A stretch of DNA of 34,973 bases from Candidatus Roizmanbacteria bacterium RIFCSPHIGHO2_12_FULL_38_13 (GTDB taxonomy: Bacteria > Patescibacteriota > Microgenomatia > UBA1406 > GWC2-37-13). Under the pieces are notes generated by a model, which was given only the letters and a program-made list of their open reading frames with translations, searched no databases and had not been told where the DNA came from. The DNA lies in the NCBI GenBank assembly GCA_001789555.1, contig MFZZ01000014.1:6009-40981 (forward strand). The letters run 5' to 3'. The position numbers and the translations under genes are program-made. Every line of letters begins with the position of its first letter. Positions within the stretch are counted from its first letter, which is position 1. Positions 4,030 through 26,643 of the stretch are shown one piece after another.

Positions 4030-4614
4030 ATGCAAAAGGGTGATTACTTAACTACGATATTAAGATCAAGTAAAACTGTCCTGACTCTTAAGGATATTGC
4101 GCTTTTATGGCAAGATTCCAACACTGATGCCGCTAGAGTTCGACTTAACTATTATGTCAGAAATGGCGATCTTTATCGAATCAGAAGAGGTATATATGCC
4201 AAAGGAAGAGAATATAATAAACTTGAGTTGTCTTCGCGTATATTTACACCCTCATATGTCAGCTTTGAAACAGTTCTGGCTAAAGATGGAGCGATTTTTC
4301 AATACCAAACTACAATTACTGTTGCCTCGTATTTAACCCGTGACGTTGTTATTGAAAATCAAACCTATTCTTACAAAAAGATTAAAAATTCGGTACTTAC
4401 AAATAATATTGGAATCGAACAAATCAATGAAATTTCTATTGCCACCAAAGAACGGGCCTTTTTAGACACCCTATATATAAACACCAATTTCCATTTTGAC
4501 AACATACGATCACTCGATTGGAATAAAGTTATTGTCATATTACCAATTTATGATAATAAACGTATGGCAAAAACTGTCGCTCAATTATTTAAACAATCAG
4601 AAACAACTAAATAA
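4030..4614 (+). CDS. AbiEi-like antitoxin / transcriptional regulator (type IV TA)
   Basis: N-terminal wHTH-like LTLKDIALLWQ...NYYVRNGDLYRIRRGIYAK; followed 5 nt later by an AbiEii-type nucleotidyltransferase. Confidence 0.75.
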   Translation: MQKGDYLTTILRSSKTVLTLKDIALLWQDSNTDAARVRLNYYVRNGDLYRIRRGIYAKGREYNKLELSSRIFTPSYVSFETVLAKDGAIFQYQTTITVASYLTRDVVIENQTYSYKKIKNSVLTNNIGIEQINEISIATKERAFLDTLYINTNFHFDNIRSLDWNKVIVILPIYDNKRMAKTVAQLFKQSETTK

Positions 4615-4619
4615 ACATT

Positions 4620-5321
4620 ATGACTTTAGATATTTCGGTTCATAAGACCATTTTGTTTCAAATTTTAAAAGATATTTATTCTGAAACAACTATTGCTCCT
4701 TTTTTAGGATTCAAGGGAGGAACTGCCGCCTTAATGTTTTATGGACTTGACCGGTTTTCTGTTGATCTTGATTTTGATCTTTTAGATAACAGCAAAGAAG
4801 ACGAGGTTTTTGAAAAAGTGATTGGAATTGTAAAAAAACACGGCATTTTAAAAGAATCATATAAAAAACGCTTTAACTTATTCTGCTTATTATCATACGA
4901 AGAAGAAGCCTATAATATCAAAGTTGAGATAAACCGACGGCAATTCGGGTCAAGGTATGAAATGAAGACTTATTTAGGAGTATCAATGATGGTTATGATC
5001 CGTGAAGATATGTTTGCCCACAAACTAATGGCAATGCACGAGCGTATACTTAAAACTAGCCGGGATATTTATGATGTCTGGTTTTTCCTTTCAAATAGAT
5101 CTCCTGTAAATAAGAAAATTATAGAAAAACGATCGGGCTTATCTTTTGAACAATTGATAAAAAGATGTATTGAACAACTTGAAGCAGTAAATAACCGACA
5201 TATTTTAGACGGAGTCGGTGAACTATTAACGCAAAACCAAAAAGATTGGGCTAAATCTAAGCTTAAAGATGAGACTATCAGTTTGTTGAAACTGCGTTTA
5301 GAAGACAGGGAAATTAATTGA
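4620..5321 (+). CDS. AbiEii/AbiGii-type nucleotidyltransferase toxin
   Basis: FLGFKGGTAALMFYGLDRFSVDLDFDLL (GGT...RxSxDLDF motif). Confidence 0.85.
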   Translation: MTLDISVHKTILFQILKDIYSETTIAPFLGFKGGTAALMFYGLDRFSVDLDFDLLDNSKEDEVFEKVIGIVKKHGILKESYKKRFNLFCLLSYEEEAYNIKVEINRRQFGSRYEMKTYLGVSMMVMIREDMFAHKLMAMHERILKTSRDIYDVWFFLSNRSPVNKKIIEKRSGLSFEQLIKRCIEQLEAVNNRHILDGVGELLTQNQKDWAKSKLKDETISLLKLRLEDREIN

Positions 5322-5563
5322 CTTTTTTCGTATAATAACGAGGAAGAGACCTTGATGACAGACTTTTAGGAAGTGGTTGTTTCATTTCTTGGAGGGGATA
5401 AGCAAGCATTAGTTTGTAGATCCAAGCAAGAAATGGTTCGAAATAAAGTGCATTGGGGTCACAAATCTTAAGTGTTCTTTCTTCCAGAATTTAACATAAG
5501 AGCTTCCCGAGTAAAACTCAATAATTTTGACAAGATATAAGGTTTATGGTATTTTTCACATAA

Positions 5564-6148
5564 GTGTTACTAAAATTGATATTAAAATTAAAATTCGTTA
5601 GTAGTTTTCTTAGAAATCTCGATCAAAGTCGTATCGACAGTATAATAACGCGTATTGAACCTTTTTTGTCCAAAAAGAATAAAATAATTGACATTGGTGT
5701 TGGTCTTGGCTTGCTTTCTAGCGCCATACAAAAGAAAGGGTATTATTTATGTCCGGTAGATGTTCATAATATTTCTATTGCGAAAGACATAAAACCAGTA
5801 CTTTTTGATGGACAAGCACTTCCGTTTAAAAATAACTCATTTGACACGGCATTGCTTATCACTGTATTACACCACACTCCAAACCCCGAGAAAATAATAC
5901 TTGAGACCTCACGCGTTGCCAAAAAAATCATCATCATGGAAGATATTTTCGAAAGTACCATTCATAAGTATTTAACATTTATAATGGATAGTATCATGAA
6001 TTTAGAGTTTTTTGGACACCCACATACGAATAAATCAGATAGAGGTTGGCGAAAGTTGTTTGAAAAAAATAAATTTACAGTTTTAAAATACGATCGCAAA
6101 CCCTATTGGAATTTTTTTATAAGTGCAATTTACGTTATTTCAAAGTAA
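5564..6148 (+). CDS. class I SAM-dependent methyltransferase
   Basis: IIDIGVGLGLLSSAIQKKG motif I, FDTALLITVLHHTPNPEKIILE; GTG start 8 nt after a -10 box. Confidence 0.75.
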   Translation: MLLKLILKLKFVSSFLRNLDQSRIDSIITRIEPFLSKKNKIIDIGVGLGLLSSAIQKKGYYLCPVDVHNISIAKDIKPVLFDGQALPFKNNSFDTALLITVLHHTPNPEKIILETSRVAKKIIIMEDIFESTIHKYLTFIMDSIMNLEFFGHPHTNKSDRGWRKLFEKNKFTVLKYDRKPYWNFFISAIYVISK

Positions 6149-16041: not shown

Positions 16042-16123
16042 GCCCGGGTGGCGGAACTGGCAGACGCGCAGTCTTGAGGGGGCTGTGCCGCAAGGCGTGG
16101 AGGTTCAAGTCCTCTCCCGGGCA
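16042..16123 (+). tRNA. tRNA-Leu (anticodon GAG)
   Basis: GCCCGGG acceptor / CCCGGGC, anticodon arm CAGTC-TTGAGGG-GGCTG, long variable arm, GTTCAAGTC T loop. Confidence 0.93.
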
Positions 16124-16251
16124 CTAATAGGGACATGGATTTAGTTGGCTGTGTTAATTGCACCTGCCCCCATACTAATTAACCAAACAAACACTCAATG
16201 CGTTAATAGAGATTTTTAGATATATAAAATGCACTTTCTAGAATACAATAC

Positions 16252-18315
16252 TTACTGTGTTTTGATACTAAGCTGATAAGCGCCTAATCGGAGTATAATG
16301 ATAAAAAGCCAATGAGCATAAATAAGCAGATAATTTTCTCGGAACATAAGTGCGTGAGATACATTATTTCGTAAGTTGTACCCACTTATTTCCATCAAAA
16401 CATACTTCATTAGGAACAACAGGTCATCCCCAAAGATCTCACTCGCGTATGATTCTCGAAGTAGCTCATCCAATCCTTTTTTTTCAGTTACCTGTTTACC
16501 ACCGCGTTCAGTTTTAATTTTAGTAACTGGTTTATCGATTGTCTCATAGAATTCTCTAATAATTCCTTCAATTTTGGGAGATAAGGAATCAACGGCTAAG
16601 ATTAAACTATTTCTTCCACCTTTTATATCTTTATTTTTAATCATTGATAAAGCATTTAGGTAGGCCTGTATTCCTGGTGTTAAAATATCGATCCATTTCC
16701 TTGACTTAAAAATAACTTTTTTAGTTTCCGTATCTCGTAAGTCATATTCTTTTCCGTACCATAAACATTTAATCATATATTTTTGGATTGCATCTAGATC
16801 CAATTTTTCAGCTTCTACCAATTCTTCAAATAAAACTGTAACTAAAGGTTCACTGGTCATTAAAGAAAAATAATACTGGTGTAATAGCGAAAGATATTCC
16901 TTTTCCAGCTCTGTGTCATATTTGCGAGGAATATCTCCTGATTCGTCAACCAACACATGCGAGAATAAAAAAGAAATAGGGTATTCTTTTTTATTCTTTT
17001 CAGCTTGTTGCTTTACTTCTTCGTATTTTGGCAAAATTGATCGATCCATTGTTAATCTGACTAATAATTGTTCTTTAGACTCCTTCTCGACGATCGTTTT
17101 AAATCGTGTGCGGATTTGGGCAACCCATTCTGATATATCCATCTTTTTTTCAAAAGTTTCAAACTTCATATTTTGTTTTGATTCTTGAAGATTTTTTTCT
17201 AATTCTTCAACTTTTGCATTGTCCCCAAGTCTCCTATACTCTGTAATAGCTTTAACAAGAAATTCAGATTGAACAAAACTTTCTTTATGTTTTTCTGCTT
17301 CCTGTTCAAGTGATAATGCAATTTTTTGCCTCCATTTTTTATCGTCCAGTTTAAAAACTGATTTTTCAATTTTTTCTCCTAATTCAAGGAAATTTCTAGC
17401 AAAGAAAAGATTGTTTTTTTCTTCTTGTTCGTCAGCCATTTTTTTACAAATTTTGATTGTATTTTCCCAAAAGTCTTCGCCGTATTCTTTTTTGTTTGTA
17501 AGCGCCAAACCTATAAGCCTACGTGTAATAGCCCACCTAGATGAGCTTTGATTATCAAAATTAAGAATTGTATCCGCTATGCTTTGATTTACCTTATTAA
17601 CGTTGTAGTTAACTTTTTTTGCTATTGTATAAGCGCTTTGAAGTGCTTTTGAAATTTCAAAAGCAGGTGTATTTTTAGGTTCATTTGTAATTAACCCTTT
17701 AAGTTTGGTAGCAACTACAAGATATTGATCTACTGCAAGTTGTGCCATTTTATGATCTTTTTCTATCATCCATAAAAAATGAGCTATGCGAGAAATAATT
17801 TTTGGATGCTTATATTTGGTTAGAAATATTCTCAGAAATTTAATATCGGCTTGCTGAAATTCTTTGATGTTAGGAAATGACCAAAATTCTCCGGAATCGT
17901 CAGTTCCTGACATTTTTGGTCTAAATTCATCTTCATATACTTCAAAACTAAAAACATTAATAAGCGCTTGAAACTGATCACTCATCTTTTTATCCTCCAA
18001 AATAAAAAAGGCTAAATCTCTAGATGTTCGAAAATGGTCACCAAGGGAAAAACTATATTTAGATTCTTCTGCAATTTTTTCAAGAGTAGCCAAGCTCTCA
18101 TCTATTTTTATTCTAGCTTCTTTTTTATTGTCAGTGCCTAGTCTTACTATGTCCTTAAAATTAGTTAGCTTTTCTAAATTATACCGTCTGTCACCCCGTT
18201 CGTTAATTTTTTCAGCTTGAAGTTTTTTCGTTCGATCCCACCTACGAAGCGTCTCGGGATGAACACCTAAAAATTCTGCTGCCTCTGCTATGGAGTAATG
18301 TGTTTTTTTAGTCAT
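16252..18315 (-). CDS. MerR-like HTH protein with C-terminal DUF4209/HEPN-like domain
   Basis: N-terminal HYSIAEAAEFLGVHPETLRRWDRTKKLQAEKINERGDRRY; C-terminal SYASEIFGDDLLFLMKYVLMEISGYNLRNNVSHAL with an RNxxxH motif. Confidence 0.7.
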   Translation of the reverse strand: MTKKTHYSIAEAAEFLGVHPETLRRWDRTKKLQAEKINERGDRRYNLEKLTNFKDIVRLGTDNKKEARIKIDESLATLEKIAEESKYSFSLGDHFRTSRDLAFFILEDKKMSDQFQALINVFSFEVYEDEFRPKMSGTDDSGEFWSFPNIKEFQQADIKFLRIFLTKYKHPKIISRIAHFLWMIEKDHKMAQLAVDQYLVVATKLKGLITNEPKNTPAFEISKALQSAYTIAKKVNYNVNKVNQSIADTILNFDNQSSSRWAITRRLIGLALTNKKEYGEDFWENTIKICKKMADEQEEKNNLFFARNFLELGEKIEKSVFKLDDKKWRQKIALSLEQEAEKHKESFVQSEFLVKAITEYRRLGDNAKVEELEKNLQESKQNMKFETFEKKMDISEWVAQIRTRFKTIVEKESKEQLLVRLTMDRSILPKYEEVKQQAEKNKKEYPISFLFSHVLVDESGDIPRKYDTELEKEYLSLLHQYYFSLMTSEPLVTVLFEELVEAEKLDLDAIQKYMIKCLWYGKEYDLRDTETKKVIFKSRKWIDILTPGIQAYLNALSMIKNKDIKGGRNSLILAVDSLSPKIEGIIREFYETIDKPVTKIKTERGGKQVTEKKGLDELLRESYASEIFGDDLLFLMKYVLMEISGYNLRNNVSHALMFRENYLLIYAHWLFIIILRLGAYQLSIKTQ

Positions 18316-18330
18316 AACTTATACTTTCTA

Positions 18331-18370
18331 CTTATACAGTATTGTGGTTTCGTTGTCAATCTGATATAGT
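18331..18370. promoter_or_regulatory. overlapping divergent promoters of the 18315(-)/18377(+) gene pair
   Basis: minus: TTGACA (18354-18359 complement), 17 nt, TATAAG (18331-18336 complement); plus: TTGTGG (18342-18347), 17 nt, TATAGT (18365-18370). Confidence 0.65.
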
Positions 18371-18376
18371 GATTTC

Positions 18377-19831
18377 ATGCCGAATTTACATGAAATTGGA
18401 AGAAATGATCGATGTCCTTGTGGGAGCGGTTTAAAATATAAGAAATGTCATATAGGTAGGACTCTCCAAGTTTTTCCTGAACCATTCAAAGGCAGATCAA
18501 TCAGAGAAAGAAATATTATTCTACTTAATGCAATTACAGATATTTTCTTTGGAAAAGGCGAAGATTGGAACGAGATGCGAAATACACTTACAGAAGATAA
18601 AGTAAGGGAGTTGTACAAAATTGTGGCATGGTTATGGCCACCTCAAACAGATATTACTTCATTGCTCCCTAAACCCAGTAAGACGTTGAGAGGCTTATAC
18701 ACTGGAGATACAAGGCCGCAAGATATTTTAAAAAATATTGTAAGGTATAGCCTCTACACTGAAGAAATAATTGTTGTCTCTCCATTCTTAGCCCCACTTA
18801 CGATGAAAGAAGAATTTAGCCCTTTGTATAACCCAAGTAAATACAGGGCAGATACATTGGAACTCATATACTTTGCCGTAGCGCTTACACCATGGATTGA
18901 AACTGGAATTGTAAACATGATACCTAATCCAATGGATTTTGACTATCGTCTCAGAAAAGAAATATATAGTATGGCTACTGCACGATATGAAGCTAATAAA
19001 GAAGAATTTGACAAAGAAATAATAGCAATTGCACATGTAGAGGGAGAACACGAATATAAACGGATGATGATGAGAATGCCTGTGGATTCATTTAGAAAAA
19101 GAATTAAAGAATTCAAACCCAATCTCTCGAAGGCAGAAGTAGATAAACACGTAGAATACTTCTTAAAACAACGTAGGAATGACCCTTTATTATTAGATGA
19201 AGAAATGTCTTCCACAACAGAAATGAAGATAAAAAGGATGGGGGCAAATCTTGAATTAGGCCTATATCTAGGACAGGCAACAGGCTCTTATCTATATACA
19301 AATAGCACCTTTCAATGGAAAGAAATAATGTCAGCTAAACAACAAACTACTGATGATTCTGATGAATGGACTCCGCTAACACGAGCATTTCAATCACTTG
19401 ATTTTACATTCCTTAACAATGTGGATGCACGCTTTGCTTATAAACTTAAAGAAGAAGGCCGCTTGGGAGGATTTAGAAACTACTTACGTAAAATTTGGCG
19501 CAAGATTGAGGAAGACAATAGCCCTACACAAGCAAATAGTGCTGCACGGGAATTTAGCGACGAATTACAGGATGAGTACAGAAAAACAAAGGAGGAATGG
19601 GCAAAAATTGATAAATCAATCGTTAAATTTATGACAGGACCAAGAGGTATCGCTACAATACTTTCTCCACTTATATTAGGTGGATTGGATTGGAGAATTC
19701 CGGCTCTCGGTTTCTCAGTCTTAGGAATTGGCAAATTACTATCTGCAAGATATAAAAGAAATGAATTTAAAGCCAATGTTCCCCTTGCCGTATTGCTTGA
19801 TTTAGAAAAAAAGAATAGAAAATTAAAATAG
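18377..19831 (+). CDS. N-terminal SEC-C motif protein with large uncharacterised body and hydrophobic C-terminal segment
   Basis: IGRNDRCPCGSGLKYKKCH SEC-C zinc motif at N-terminus; C-terminal GPRGIATILSPLILGGLDWRIPALGFSVLGIGKLLSARYKR. Confidence 0.75.
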   Translation: MPNLHEIGRNDRCPCGSGLKYKKCHIGRTLQVFPEPFKGRSIRERNIILLNAITDIFFGKGEDWNEMRNTLTEDKVRELYKIVAWLWPPQTDITSLLPKPSKTLRGLYTGDTRPQDILKNIVRYSLYTEEIIVVSPFLAPLTMKEEFSPLYNPSKYRADTLELIYFAVALTPWIETGIVNMIPNPMDFDYRLRKEIYSMATARYEANKEEFDKEIIAIAHVEGEHEYKRMMMRMPVDSFRKRIKEFKPNLSKAEVDKHVEYFLKQRRNDPLLLDEEMSSTTEMKIKRMGANLELGLYLGQATGSYLYTNSTFQWKEIMSAKQQTTDDSDEWTPLTRAFQSLDFTFLNNVDARFAYKLKEEGRLGGFRNYLRKIWRKIEEDNSPTQANSAAREFSDELQDEYRKTKEEWAKIDKSIVKFMTGPRGIATILSPLILGGLDWRIPALGFSVLGIGKLLSARYKRNEFKANVPLAVLLDLEKKNRKLK

Positions 19832-20440: not shown

Positions 20441-20521
20441 AAAAGTATTATAAATCAAAAGCCTCATAAAATAATAAAAAAATATTTGCCAGCAGAAAAA
20501 CCAGTGCTATACCATAGATAT

Positions 20522-20737
20522 ATGGATAATCCACAGACCAGACAGGAAGTCGGGCGAAAACTCAAAGAAGCTCGCACGAATAAGAAAATGACACAGGCCG
20601 AAGTAGCAAAAAAAGCCGATCTGAATACCAATTACTATGCCTGTATTGAACGGGGAGAAGTAAACCCTTCTATGGAGAAACTGGAGAGTATCATAAAAGT
20701 CCTGGGTGTAAAGTCAGCAAAGATATTACCGTTTTGA
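20522..20737 (+). CDS. XRE-family HTH transcriptional regulator
   Basis: VGRKLKEARTNKKMTQAEVAKKADLNTNYYACIERGEVNPSMEKLESIIKVLGV. Confidence 0.88.
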   Translation: MDNPQTRQEVGRKLKEARTNKKMTQAEVAKKADLNTNYYACIERGEVNPSMEKLESIIKVLGVKSAKILPF

Positions 20738-20748
20738 GAGCCTTTATT

Positions 20749-20970
20749 ATGGCTTCCCATAAACAAAAACAAGATCCAAGACGAGGATATCTCTTCAATC
20801 TCTCTACAGAAGAGCGAATCAATATATTGGCCAATGCCATTGTAGACAGGACGATTGAAGAAGAGAAGAAGTTTAAAGAGAGACAAAAGAAAGACCCGAA
20901 AGCAAAAAGGATTTATGAAATGTGTGAATGTTCAAGATGCAAACAAAACAGATCAAATAAGCCTGCCTAA
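20749..20970 (+). CDS. small hypothetical protein with a CxxC-type tail
   Basis: MASHKQKQDPRRGYLFNLSTEERINILANAIVDRTIEEEKKFKERQKKDPKAKRIYEMCECSRCKQN. Confidence 0.5.
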   Translation: MASHKQKQDPRRGYLFNLSTEERINILANAIVDRTIEEEKKFKERQKKDPKAKRIYEMCECSRCKQNRSNKPA

Positions 20971-21426
20971 TCCCGTAAAACGAAACATCTCTTCAGCCCA
21001 TTCCTTCCCTTCAATTCTCCTCATAATCTCCATACTCCGACTCTGAGAGAGTATATTCAGGCTACCTTCCCAGAGAATTTTCCGGTCAATGATGGCAAGC
21101 TTGCGGTGATGATAACCACGAAGCATTACCGTATTGATTCCCATCTCATGACACGTCAGTATCTCGTTTGTTGCCTGGTGGCGGTAGAATTCTTCATGTT
21201 CGACCGGATCGCGGGTAATGATATGGATTTTTACTTTTTTGCGGAGTAAATCTTTCAGTCCAGGGTAAAGCAGTTCCATGCGGGAAGCCGTGATATACGG
21301 GCTTTCGATAATGGCTTCTTGCTTGCACTGTTGCAAATCGGAAATGAAGACATCGTAAAAACCAATTTCATCAAACAGTTTGCTTTTAAATGAATCATTC
21401 CTGTTCCGGAAGAAGAAAGGGATCAT
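20953..21426 (-). CDS. phospholipase D-like phosphodiesterase/nuclease, single HKD motif
   Basis: AIIESPYITASRMELL...GYHHRKLAIIDRKILWEGSLNILSQ (HxKx4D). Confidence 0.78.
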   Translation of the reverse strand: MIPFFFRNRNDSFKSKLFDEIGFYDVFISDLQQCKQEAIIESPYITASRMELLYPGLKDLLRKKVKIHIITRDPVEHEEFYRHQATNEILTCHEMGINTVMLRGYHHRKLAIIDRKILWEGSLNILSQSRSMEIMRRIEGKEWAEEMFRFTGLGRLI

Positions 21427-21556
21427 TCTGCGTCCTCCTTTCTTCGGATCATCAGTTTACCGTCATCAGCAAGGTAAAACTGCATGAGGTCGTGAAAGTG
21501 TGCTACAATTAGTTCAACGAGAGTAGTCTCCCGGGCACATGAAAATCTATTTAGTA

Positions 21557-22732: not shown

Positions 22733-22786
22733 GGATAGAATTGTATCAAATTCTCTAGATGATATCAATACTATAGGTATAAAAAC

Positions 22787-22976
22787 GCTTGATAAAACGT
22801 ACTCTCATCGTATAATATTAGACGTTGTAACATCTGAAACAGGTTTGAAGAGATTGAACCAGTTCACTATTTTTCTTCCTTTTTGAAATGAGAAATTGCA
22901 ATAAGAAGAGCAGTTTTTTTTGAGGATCAATTTTGGAGTTTAAATAGGTTTGAAACATCGTCCTAGATGGTGCACC
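22787..22976 (+). repeat. dispersed repeat R, copy 1 (long form, lacks central palindrome)
   Basis: GCTTGATAAAACGTACT...CTTTTTGAAATGAGAAAT-GCAATAAG-AGAGCAGTTTTTT...GATGGTGCACC; aligns with 25790-25995. Confidence 0.8.
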
Positions 22977-23031: not shown

Positions 23032-23979
23032 ATGATAGACCTACAATTACAAGCAGTAGAAGCTCTTCGAAGTATTTCTCGCAACGAAAAAATTAAAAAA
23101 TATCTCCTACAGAATCCGTCTTTATATAAGATCGTTCTGAGAGCAGCGATGCGTTTTATTGGTGGAGAAACTCTTGCTGAATGTTTTCATATAGCTCAAC
23201 AGATAACAGTCAATGGACATGCGTTTACTATTGATTTCATAGGAGAAAGTACGAGAGACGAAAAAGCAGTAAATCTAGCTACAGAAGAGTTTTTAAGAGT
23301 CGTTAGTAAAATTAAAAAAACACGAAGCACTGCTTCGATCTCCTTAGATCTTTCTCATATCGGTTCAGTAATCGATAAAGAACTTGGACATACCAATGCA
23401 GTAAGAATTGCGGAGGCTTCAAGAAAAGCTGGTATTGAGATGATGATTAGTATGGAAGGGATAGATCGTACTGATTCTATTTTAGAGGAATACTTCCGAC
23501 TGAGTAAAACATATGAGAATGTTGGCATAACGATTCAGGCATACCTTCATAGGACAAAAAAAGATCTTCAGGAAGTATTAAAACGGAGAGGGAAAATAAG
23601 ACTGGTAAAAGGAGCGTATAAAGTACCAGAAACTGAAGCATTACCTTTAGGATCAAAGACAGATAAAGCATATAAGAAATACATAGAAACTATTCTTTCA
23701 CAGAATTACCTCTGCTCTATCGCAACACATGATGAAAATCTACTTATGCATGCCGATACTATTATAAAAAGGCATAAACTGAAGATTAACAAAATGGAAT
23801 TTGAGATGTTACATGGTGTCACTCCAGATCGACTTTTACAGCTACATCAGAAAGGATACAAAACACGCGAATATTTGCCCTATGGTAAAGAATGGTATCT
23901 CTATTTGTGCCATCGACTTGCGGAAAATCCTGCCAATATTTACCAGGCGCTTGCAGATGCTGCAGGCAACGTATTGTAA
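23032..23979 (+). CDS. proline dehydrogenase (PRODH) family protein
   Basis: SLDLSHIGSVID...GIEMMISMEGIDRTDSILEEYFRL...VGITIQAYLHRTKKDLQEVL..GKIRLVKGAYKVPE...YLPYGKEWYLYLCHRLAENPAN. Confidence 0.88.
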   Translation: MIDLQLQAVEALRSISRNEKIKKYLLQNPSLYKIVLRAAMRFIGGETLAECFHIAQQITVNGHAFTIDFIGESTRDEKAVNLATEEFLRVVSKIKKTRSTASISLDLSHIGSVIDKELGHTNAVRIAEASRKAGIEMMISMEGIDRTDSILEEYFRLSKTYENVGITIQAYLHRTKKDLQEVLKRRGKIRLVKGAYKVPETEALPLGSKTDKAYKKYIETILSQNYLCSIATHDENLLMHADTIIKRHKLKINKMEFEMLHGVTPDRLLQLHQKGYKTREYLPYGKEWYLYLCHRLAENPANIYQALADAAGNVL

Positions 23980-24691: not shown

Positions 24692-24818
24692 AAAGTTTAC
24701 ATCAATTTGAATCTAGAAATGGCAATAAGGAGAGCAGTTTTTCGTTAGGATCAATTTTGGAGGTTAAGTAGGCCCGAACACCTGCCACGTCTGACGTGGT
24801 CGTCCCAGATGGTGCACC
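24692..24818 (+). repeat. dispersed repeat R, copy 2
   Basis: AGAAATGGCAATAAGGAGAGCAGTTTTTCGTTAGGATCAATTTTGGAGGTTAAGTAGGCCCGAACACCTGCCACGTCTGACGTGGTCGTCCCAGATGGTGCACC. Confidence 0.85.
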
Positions 24819-25733: not shown

Positions 25734-25789
25734 GATATAGATTGATCTAGATTTGTCAAAGACCGTGAACTCTCACATCACCCATGAAT

Positions 25790-25995
25790 GCTTGATAAAA
25801 CGTACTTTCATCATATAATATAGATGGCGCTATATCTGGATCGGGTTTAAAAAGTTGAACCAGTTCATTGTTTTACATCCTTTTTGAAATGAGAAATGGC
25901 AATAAGGAGAGCAGTTTTTTCGTTAGGATCAAATTGAGAGGTTAAATAGGTTCGAACACCTGCCACGTCTGACGTGGTCATCGCAGATGGTGCAC
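25790..25995 (+). repeat. dispersed repeat R, copy 3 (long form)
   Basis: GCTTGATAAAACGTACT...GGTTCGAACACCTGCCACGTCTGACGTGGTCATCGCAGATGGTGCAC. Confidence 0.88.
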
Positions 25996-26037
25996 AAATA
26001 TAAAAGTTTTTCATACTCTAAAGTATATAATAGGCTT

Positions 26038-26517: not shown

Positions 26518-26572
26518 GTTCGAACACCTGCCACGTCTGACGTTCCAGGCAGGTCGTCCCAGATGGTGCACC
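26518..26572 (+). repeat. dispersed repeat R, copy 4 (core only, variant stem)
   Basis: GTTCGAACACCTGCCACGTCTGACGTTCCAGGCAGGTCGTCCCAGATGGTGCACC. Confidence 0.85.
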
Positions 26573-26643
26573 ATAGTGGATGATGAACTTTTCAAACCGG
26601 TATATCGGCTGATCTGGGACAGAGAGTTTCTAATAGATAAACA

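Follow-up and report, generated by a model that had tools for sequence, protein, structure and literature searches.

We examined a 34,973-nt stretch (hereafter, the window) of contig MFZZ01000014.1 from Candidatus Roizmanbacteria bacterium RIFCSPHIGHO2_12_FULL_38_13, a member of the Patescibacteria with a small genome (1.2 Mb, 46 contigs). Two divergent open reading frames (ORFs), encoding proteins of 687 and 484 aa, are genuine genes that lie next to a tRNA-Leu gene (Table 1). The original prediction had placed them in a tRNA-adjacent accessory island, and this setting is supported by a 12-nt repeat of the 3' end of the tRNA gene, of which about 1.7e-4 copies would be expected by chance given the composition of the flanking 13.9 kb. 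This arrangement suggests a 5.4-kb insertion that holds both genes, a gene with an XRE-type helix-turn-helix (HTH), a gene for a PLD-like protein and small ORFs, with no recognizable recombinase. The region between the two divergent genes is 61 nt long, not 40 nt as first given.

Table 1 Features of the divergent gene locus and the surrounding island (window coordinates)
Feature	Position	Strand	Evidence
tRNA-Leu(GAG), probable integration site	16042..16124	+	
687-aa HTH-DUF7380/TPR-like-DUF4209 (HEPN) protein, PDC-S39 family	16252..18315	-	Pfam, PADLOC, R-x4-H invariance
DUF4209 (HEPN-superfamily) domain, residues 582-675	16291..16572	-	Pfam E 3.1e-10; PMC3710099
HEPN active-site motif LRNNVSHAL, residues 648-656	16348..16374	-	R-x4-H invariance in family
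DUF7380, residues 150-241; opens TPR-like helical middle	17593..17868	-	Pfam E 5.6e-12; TPR-type fold matches
MerR-type (HspR-like) HTH, residues 7-59	18139..18297	-	MerR_1 E 6.6e-9
Upstream element ATACTGTATAAGTAGAAAGTATAAGT, direct repeat GTATAAGT-N5-GTATAAGT; proposed autoregulatory operator	18317..18342	-	Conserved vs orthologue
Sigma-70-like promoter TTGACA-N17-TATAAG into HTH-HEPN gene	18331..18359	-	Relaxed hexamer search
484-aa SEC-C protein, DUF4238-less member of DUF4238-SEC-C family; not conserved partner	18377..19831	+	Pfam, tblastn, AlphaFold2
SEC-C zinc-binding motif, residues 9-25	18401..18451	+	Pfam E 1.7e-9
XRE-type HTH (HTH_3), island passenger	20486..20737	+	
PLD-like nuclease domain protein, island passenger	20953..21426	-	Pfam
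12-nt repeat of tRNA-Leu 3' end (TCTCCCGGGCAC), candidate right end of 5.4-kb insertion	21527..21538	+	

The 687-aa protein consists of an N-terminal MerR-type HTH, a helical middle part that starts with DUF7380, and a C-terminal DUF4209 domain. Matches to all three Pfam families exceed the curated cut-offs; the HspR model also hits the HTH (E=1.3e-7), with a score far below its own cut-off. The MerR-like HTH and the C-terminal RNxxxH motif with DUF4209 had been correctly recognized from the sequence, and DUF7380 had been missed. Most of the length of the PADLOC profile PDC-S39 is covered by this protein (E=3.5e-52), with the best match in residues 107-465 and an additional stretch at the C-terminus. 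Anantharaman and colleagues assigned DUF4209 to the HEPN superfamily under the name C6orf70 and predicted an active site for it (PMC3710099). The R-x4-H signature, which conforms to the HEPN catalytic motif R-x4-6-H, is unbroken in 23/23 family members compared; these come from Patescibacteria, Hymenobacter, Sinorhizobium, Pseudoalteromonas and proviral contigs, and mostly show 15-22% identity to the 687-aa protein. Thus, the proposed relationship to HEPN-type RNases is well supported by the published family assignment, the PDC-S39 match and the invariance of the motif.

Structural modeling of this protein was less informative. The AlphaFold2 model, built from 11 sequences, is weak (mean pLDDT 64.7, below 50 around the motif); the C-terminus, where the all-alpha four-helix HEPN fold would be expected, is predicted, at low confidence, to be helical, and no solved structure related to it was found by sequence search. 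The middle part of the model resembles TPR proteins such as LGN, KLC and gamma-SNAP, with low TM-scores; all fold matches of the model were of the TPR type.

The 484-aa protein carries the N-terminal SEC-C motif that had been noticed initially, and its residues C13, C15 and C24 are invariant in 21 aligned sequences. The protein shares homology with the C-terminal portion of approximately 800-aa proteins from Pseudomonadota and others that start with DUF4238 (tblastn E-values down to 2e-55); DUF4238 is fused in front in 39 of the 41 relatives with adequate coverage. Pfam detected no DUF4238 in the 484-aa protein, and this domain is also absent in or near its orthologues from Gottesmanbacteria (75% identity) and Amesbacteria (51%), at loci L096 and L097. 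By its C-terminal core and SEC-C motif, the protein is nevertheless assigned, on sequence grounds, to the DUF4238-SEC-C family.

The hydrophobic C-terminal segment of the 484-aa protein, originally taken as the mark of a possible membrane effector, does not hold up as such: hydropathy in this segment reaches 1.29, and in the AlphaFold2 model the segment belongs to a beta strand within a globular domain. No transmembrane-grade segment was detected anywhere in the protein, with the maximum 19-residue hydropathy of 1.43 located outside the C-terminal segment, and the model as a whole is globular alpha/beta (mean pLDDT 86.5). A membrane pore effector was therefore rejected. Foldseek identified no known fold for the core (best E-values 0.45 in PDB and 1.3 in BFVD, a viral library), and since neither a PIN domain nor any other fold was matched, we do not claim a PIN-like reading suggested by the sequence motif TGSxIVTDSxxRW. 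Given the lack of a fold match in PDB, the structure of a DUF4238-SEC-C protein would be informative. At L097, the Amesbacteria locus, a gene encoding a LexA-DNA-methyltransferase fusion (4409-5830, 473 aa) lies divergent from the SEC-C gene, and the element, located beside a tRNA-Leu gene, contains a serine recombinase.

We examined the distribution of both families beyond the window. When the complete proteins served as queries, small MerR proteins and SecA C-termini, which are unrelated, dominated the results, so the searches were redone without the HTH and SEC-C regions; an initial scan of the genome contigs with the 687-aa protein gave no match. The two divergent genes had been read as one two-gene defence system, a regulator/RNase paired with an effector, and the divergent layout over a short shared intergenic region as well as the mobile or defence contexts of both families fit such a system. 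The families do not co-occur, however: no SEC-C-protein relative is present in any of the 24 PDC-S39 loci, and the 54 loci of the SEC-C family likewise contain no HEPN-protein relative. A lack of co-occurrence in other genomes is an outcome that the original prediction itself had named as refuting the pair. Orthologues of each gene are found without the other. A genome from another genus of the same family (G488) encodes an orthologue of the HTH-HEPN protein that is 68% identical over the full length, HTH included, and lacks the SEC-C gene; the divergent position is occupied by a gene for a 189-aa protein that, on visual inspection, resembles PIN proteins and has no Pfam match. Conversely, G406, which falls in the same class as the window genome, and G425 possess the SEC-C gene (75% and 54%, respectively) and no HTH-HEPN gene. 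Together with the conserved upstream DNA, which stops on the HTH-HEPN side (see below), these observations make a two-gene system very improbable, and the defence pair was rejected. Since each gene occurs without the other and no locus is shared, the two are independent cargo, and the SEC-C gene, a DUF4238-less representative of the DUF4238-SEC-C family, is a single-gene cargo in its own right and not a partner of the HTH-HEPN gene. The attractive divergent 'pair' is thereby corrected to two independent cargo genes.

The DNA immediately upstream of the HTH-HEPN gene contains a direct repeat, and the -10 box of the predicted promoter falls within its first GTATAAGT copy. This promoter was seen with relaxed hexamers; a stricter scan that demanded T at position 6 lists no site. 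A 26-nt block, ATACTGTATAAGTAGA(A/T)AGTATAAGT, is identical in 25 of 26 positions upstream of both HTH-HEPN orthologues, whose coding DNA is 67% identical. None of the 2036 coding windows of the same length reached 25 identities, and the maximum among 300 shuffles of the intergenic sequence was 20. Beyond the block, towards the divergent gene, identity is low. No second operator site with up to 3 mismatches is present in the genome that contains the window. A survey of 72 genomes from the family yielded sites free of mismatches in two only, precisely those that carry the HTH-HEPN gene; sites with three mismatches, being no commoner than in the reversed control, were left out. The simplest reading of this element, as conserved in two genomes, is that of a putative operator through which the fused HTH would regulate its own gene.

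The HEPN family is rare and scattered, with representatives in 4/373 genomes of the class and 7/380 genomes sampled across the phylum. Such sporadic distribution, along with the location of the gene in mobile islands, argues against a housekeeping RNA-processing regulator of the lineage; notwithstanding that the eukaryotic C6orf70 proteins that also carry DUF4209 are conserved cellular proteins (PMC3710099), we consider this role highly unlikely. The family has no fixed partner gene by neighbour clustering. When the genes around the SEC-C-family and HEPN-family loci were clustered and annotated with Pfam, serine recombinases turned out to be the sole widely recurring neighbours (8 loci). A defence context is apparent for some PDC-S39 relatives only: BREX genes adjoin the one at L092, an MmeI-type restriction enzyme gene adjoins the one at L006, and others reside in proviral contigs.

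These neighbourhoods bear on another explanation, under which the HTH-HEPN protein, a toxin with an in-cis repressor, would mainly serve its mobile element as a selfish stabiliser or as a stress regulator rather than act against viruses. The recombinases in the element context of many relatives and the HTH with its putative operator are compatible with this possibility, and the HspR-like character of the HTH might indicate a response to proteotoxic or heat stress. Nevertheless, no antitoxin is adjacent, the family profile is that of a defence candidate, and some relatives have BREX or restriction genes as neighbours or belong to proviruses, so we regard this explanation as rather unlikely.

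It seems fairly probable, from the PDC-S39 match, the domain content, the conservation of the motif and of the upstream element, the scattered distribution, the defence or proviral setting of some relatives and the lack of a partner, that the HTH-HEPN gene is a stand-alone, self-regulated HEPN defence module of the PDC-S39 family, which probably acts by abortive infection. The gene would be a cargo of a small mobile island inserted at tRNA-Leu in a Patescibacteria genome. The N-terminal MerR-type HTH would bind the two GTATAAGT repeats over its own -10 box and keep expression low, as the conserved, gene-specific element suggests; the TPR-like middle part may sense a cue of infection or stress. 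The HEPN domains at the C-terminus, which probably dimerize, would then cut RNA via R649 and H654, halting growth or phage propagation, with a presumed antiviral benefit. As a further possibility, which we rate somewhat short of even, this could be an antitoxin-less HEPN immune module in a single polypeptide, with repressor, sensor and RNase fused, that moves together with its single operator between genera on Patescibacteria mobile elements.

The original interpretation is supported in part, and 'undescribed' does not hold for the HEPN half. This half is of a known candidate kind, namely PDC-S39, a single-gene phage-defence candidate in PADLOC (PDLC05011/PDLC05012), with which the 687-aa protein shares the DUF4209 C-terminus and the stand-alone organization in addition to the profile match; PDC-S39 has the status of a phage-defence candidate only. 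What the 687-aa protein adds is the fused N-terminal MerR-type HTH and the dedicated, conserved putative operator, and this HTH-HEPN fusion with an upstream element that travels with the gene is new here. The same holds with respect to the DUF4209/C6orf70 HEPN family (PMC3710099): the DUF4209 match above the Pfam cut-off and the invariant R-x4-H are shared, the HTH fusion is found in the window protein, and the HEPN fold and RNase activity are predictions. The proposed arrangement, a repressor-like HTH acting on its own promoter, is also reminiscent of the autoregulation of type II toxin-antitoxin systems; in the window gene, unlike in those systems, the HTH and the putative toxin are joined in one polypeptide and there is no separate antitoxin. 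Experiments have clarified the workings of few defence genes in Patescibacteria, and a control site predicted to the base pair allows a direct test, through binding, derepression and RNA cleavage, of how a lone HEPN nuclease could be kept safe without an antitoxin.

For the SEC-C protein, the closest link to defence is a single-gene DUF4238 protein of P2-like phages that protects E. coli from T7 (PMC9122126). Relatives of the SEC-C protein share an N-terminal DUF4238 with this system, whereas the 484-aa protein lacks that domain. The DUF4238-SEC-C relative P0010 gave no match at 1e-3 to the PADLOC DUF4238 defence models, so we treat the anti-T7 connection as a lead rather than an assignment.

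Among the PDC-S39 relatives, several (P0003, P0005, P0006 and P0009) lack an HTH, and no close relative with the same MerR-type fusion was found beyond one family. At L077 (8296-10242), a Patescibacteria DUF4209 protein of 648 aa starts with an HTH of another type, the excisionase-like HTH_17. This seems to be a separate fusion, so that fusion of a regulator to the HEPN protein may have arisen more than once in this phylum. In two other Patescibacteria loci (L075, 6343-9208; L076, 7351-9601), the PDC-S39 gene is followed by a second gene. The products of these second genes (359 and 366 aa, 44% identical to each other) bear an RNxxxH motif of their own (LRNHIIHG) and match no family in Pfam or PADLOC; this gene pair is a possible two-HEPN operon. 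Genes that appear PIN-like by eye and have no Pfam match adjoin DUF4209 genes at L157 (10492-11061) and L078 (7034-8422), one being divergent from its neighbour and the other forming an overlapping operon with it.

Elsewhere in the window, imperfect direct repeats of 20-80 nt (D1-D8; 22784-22976, 24706-24818, 25787-25996 and 26518-26585) are scattered over 22.8-26.6 kb in the surroundings of two genes, one for a PIN protein and one for an APH-type phosphotransferase, and possibly represent an array resembling recombination sites. The window also contains a proline dehydrogenase-like gene (23032-23979; Pro_dh E=3.2e-31), a catabolic gene that is unusual in so small a genome.
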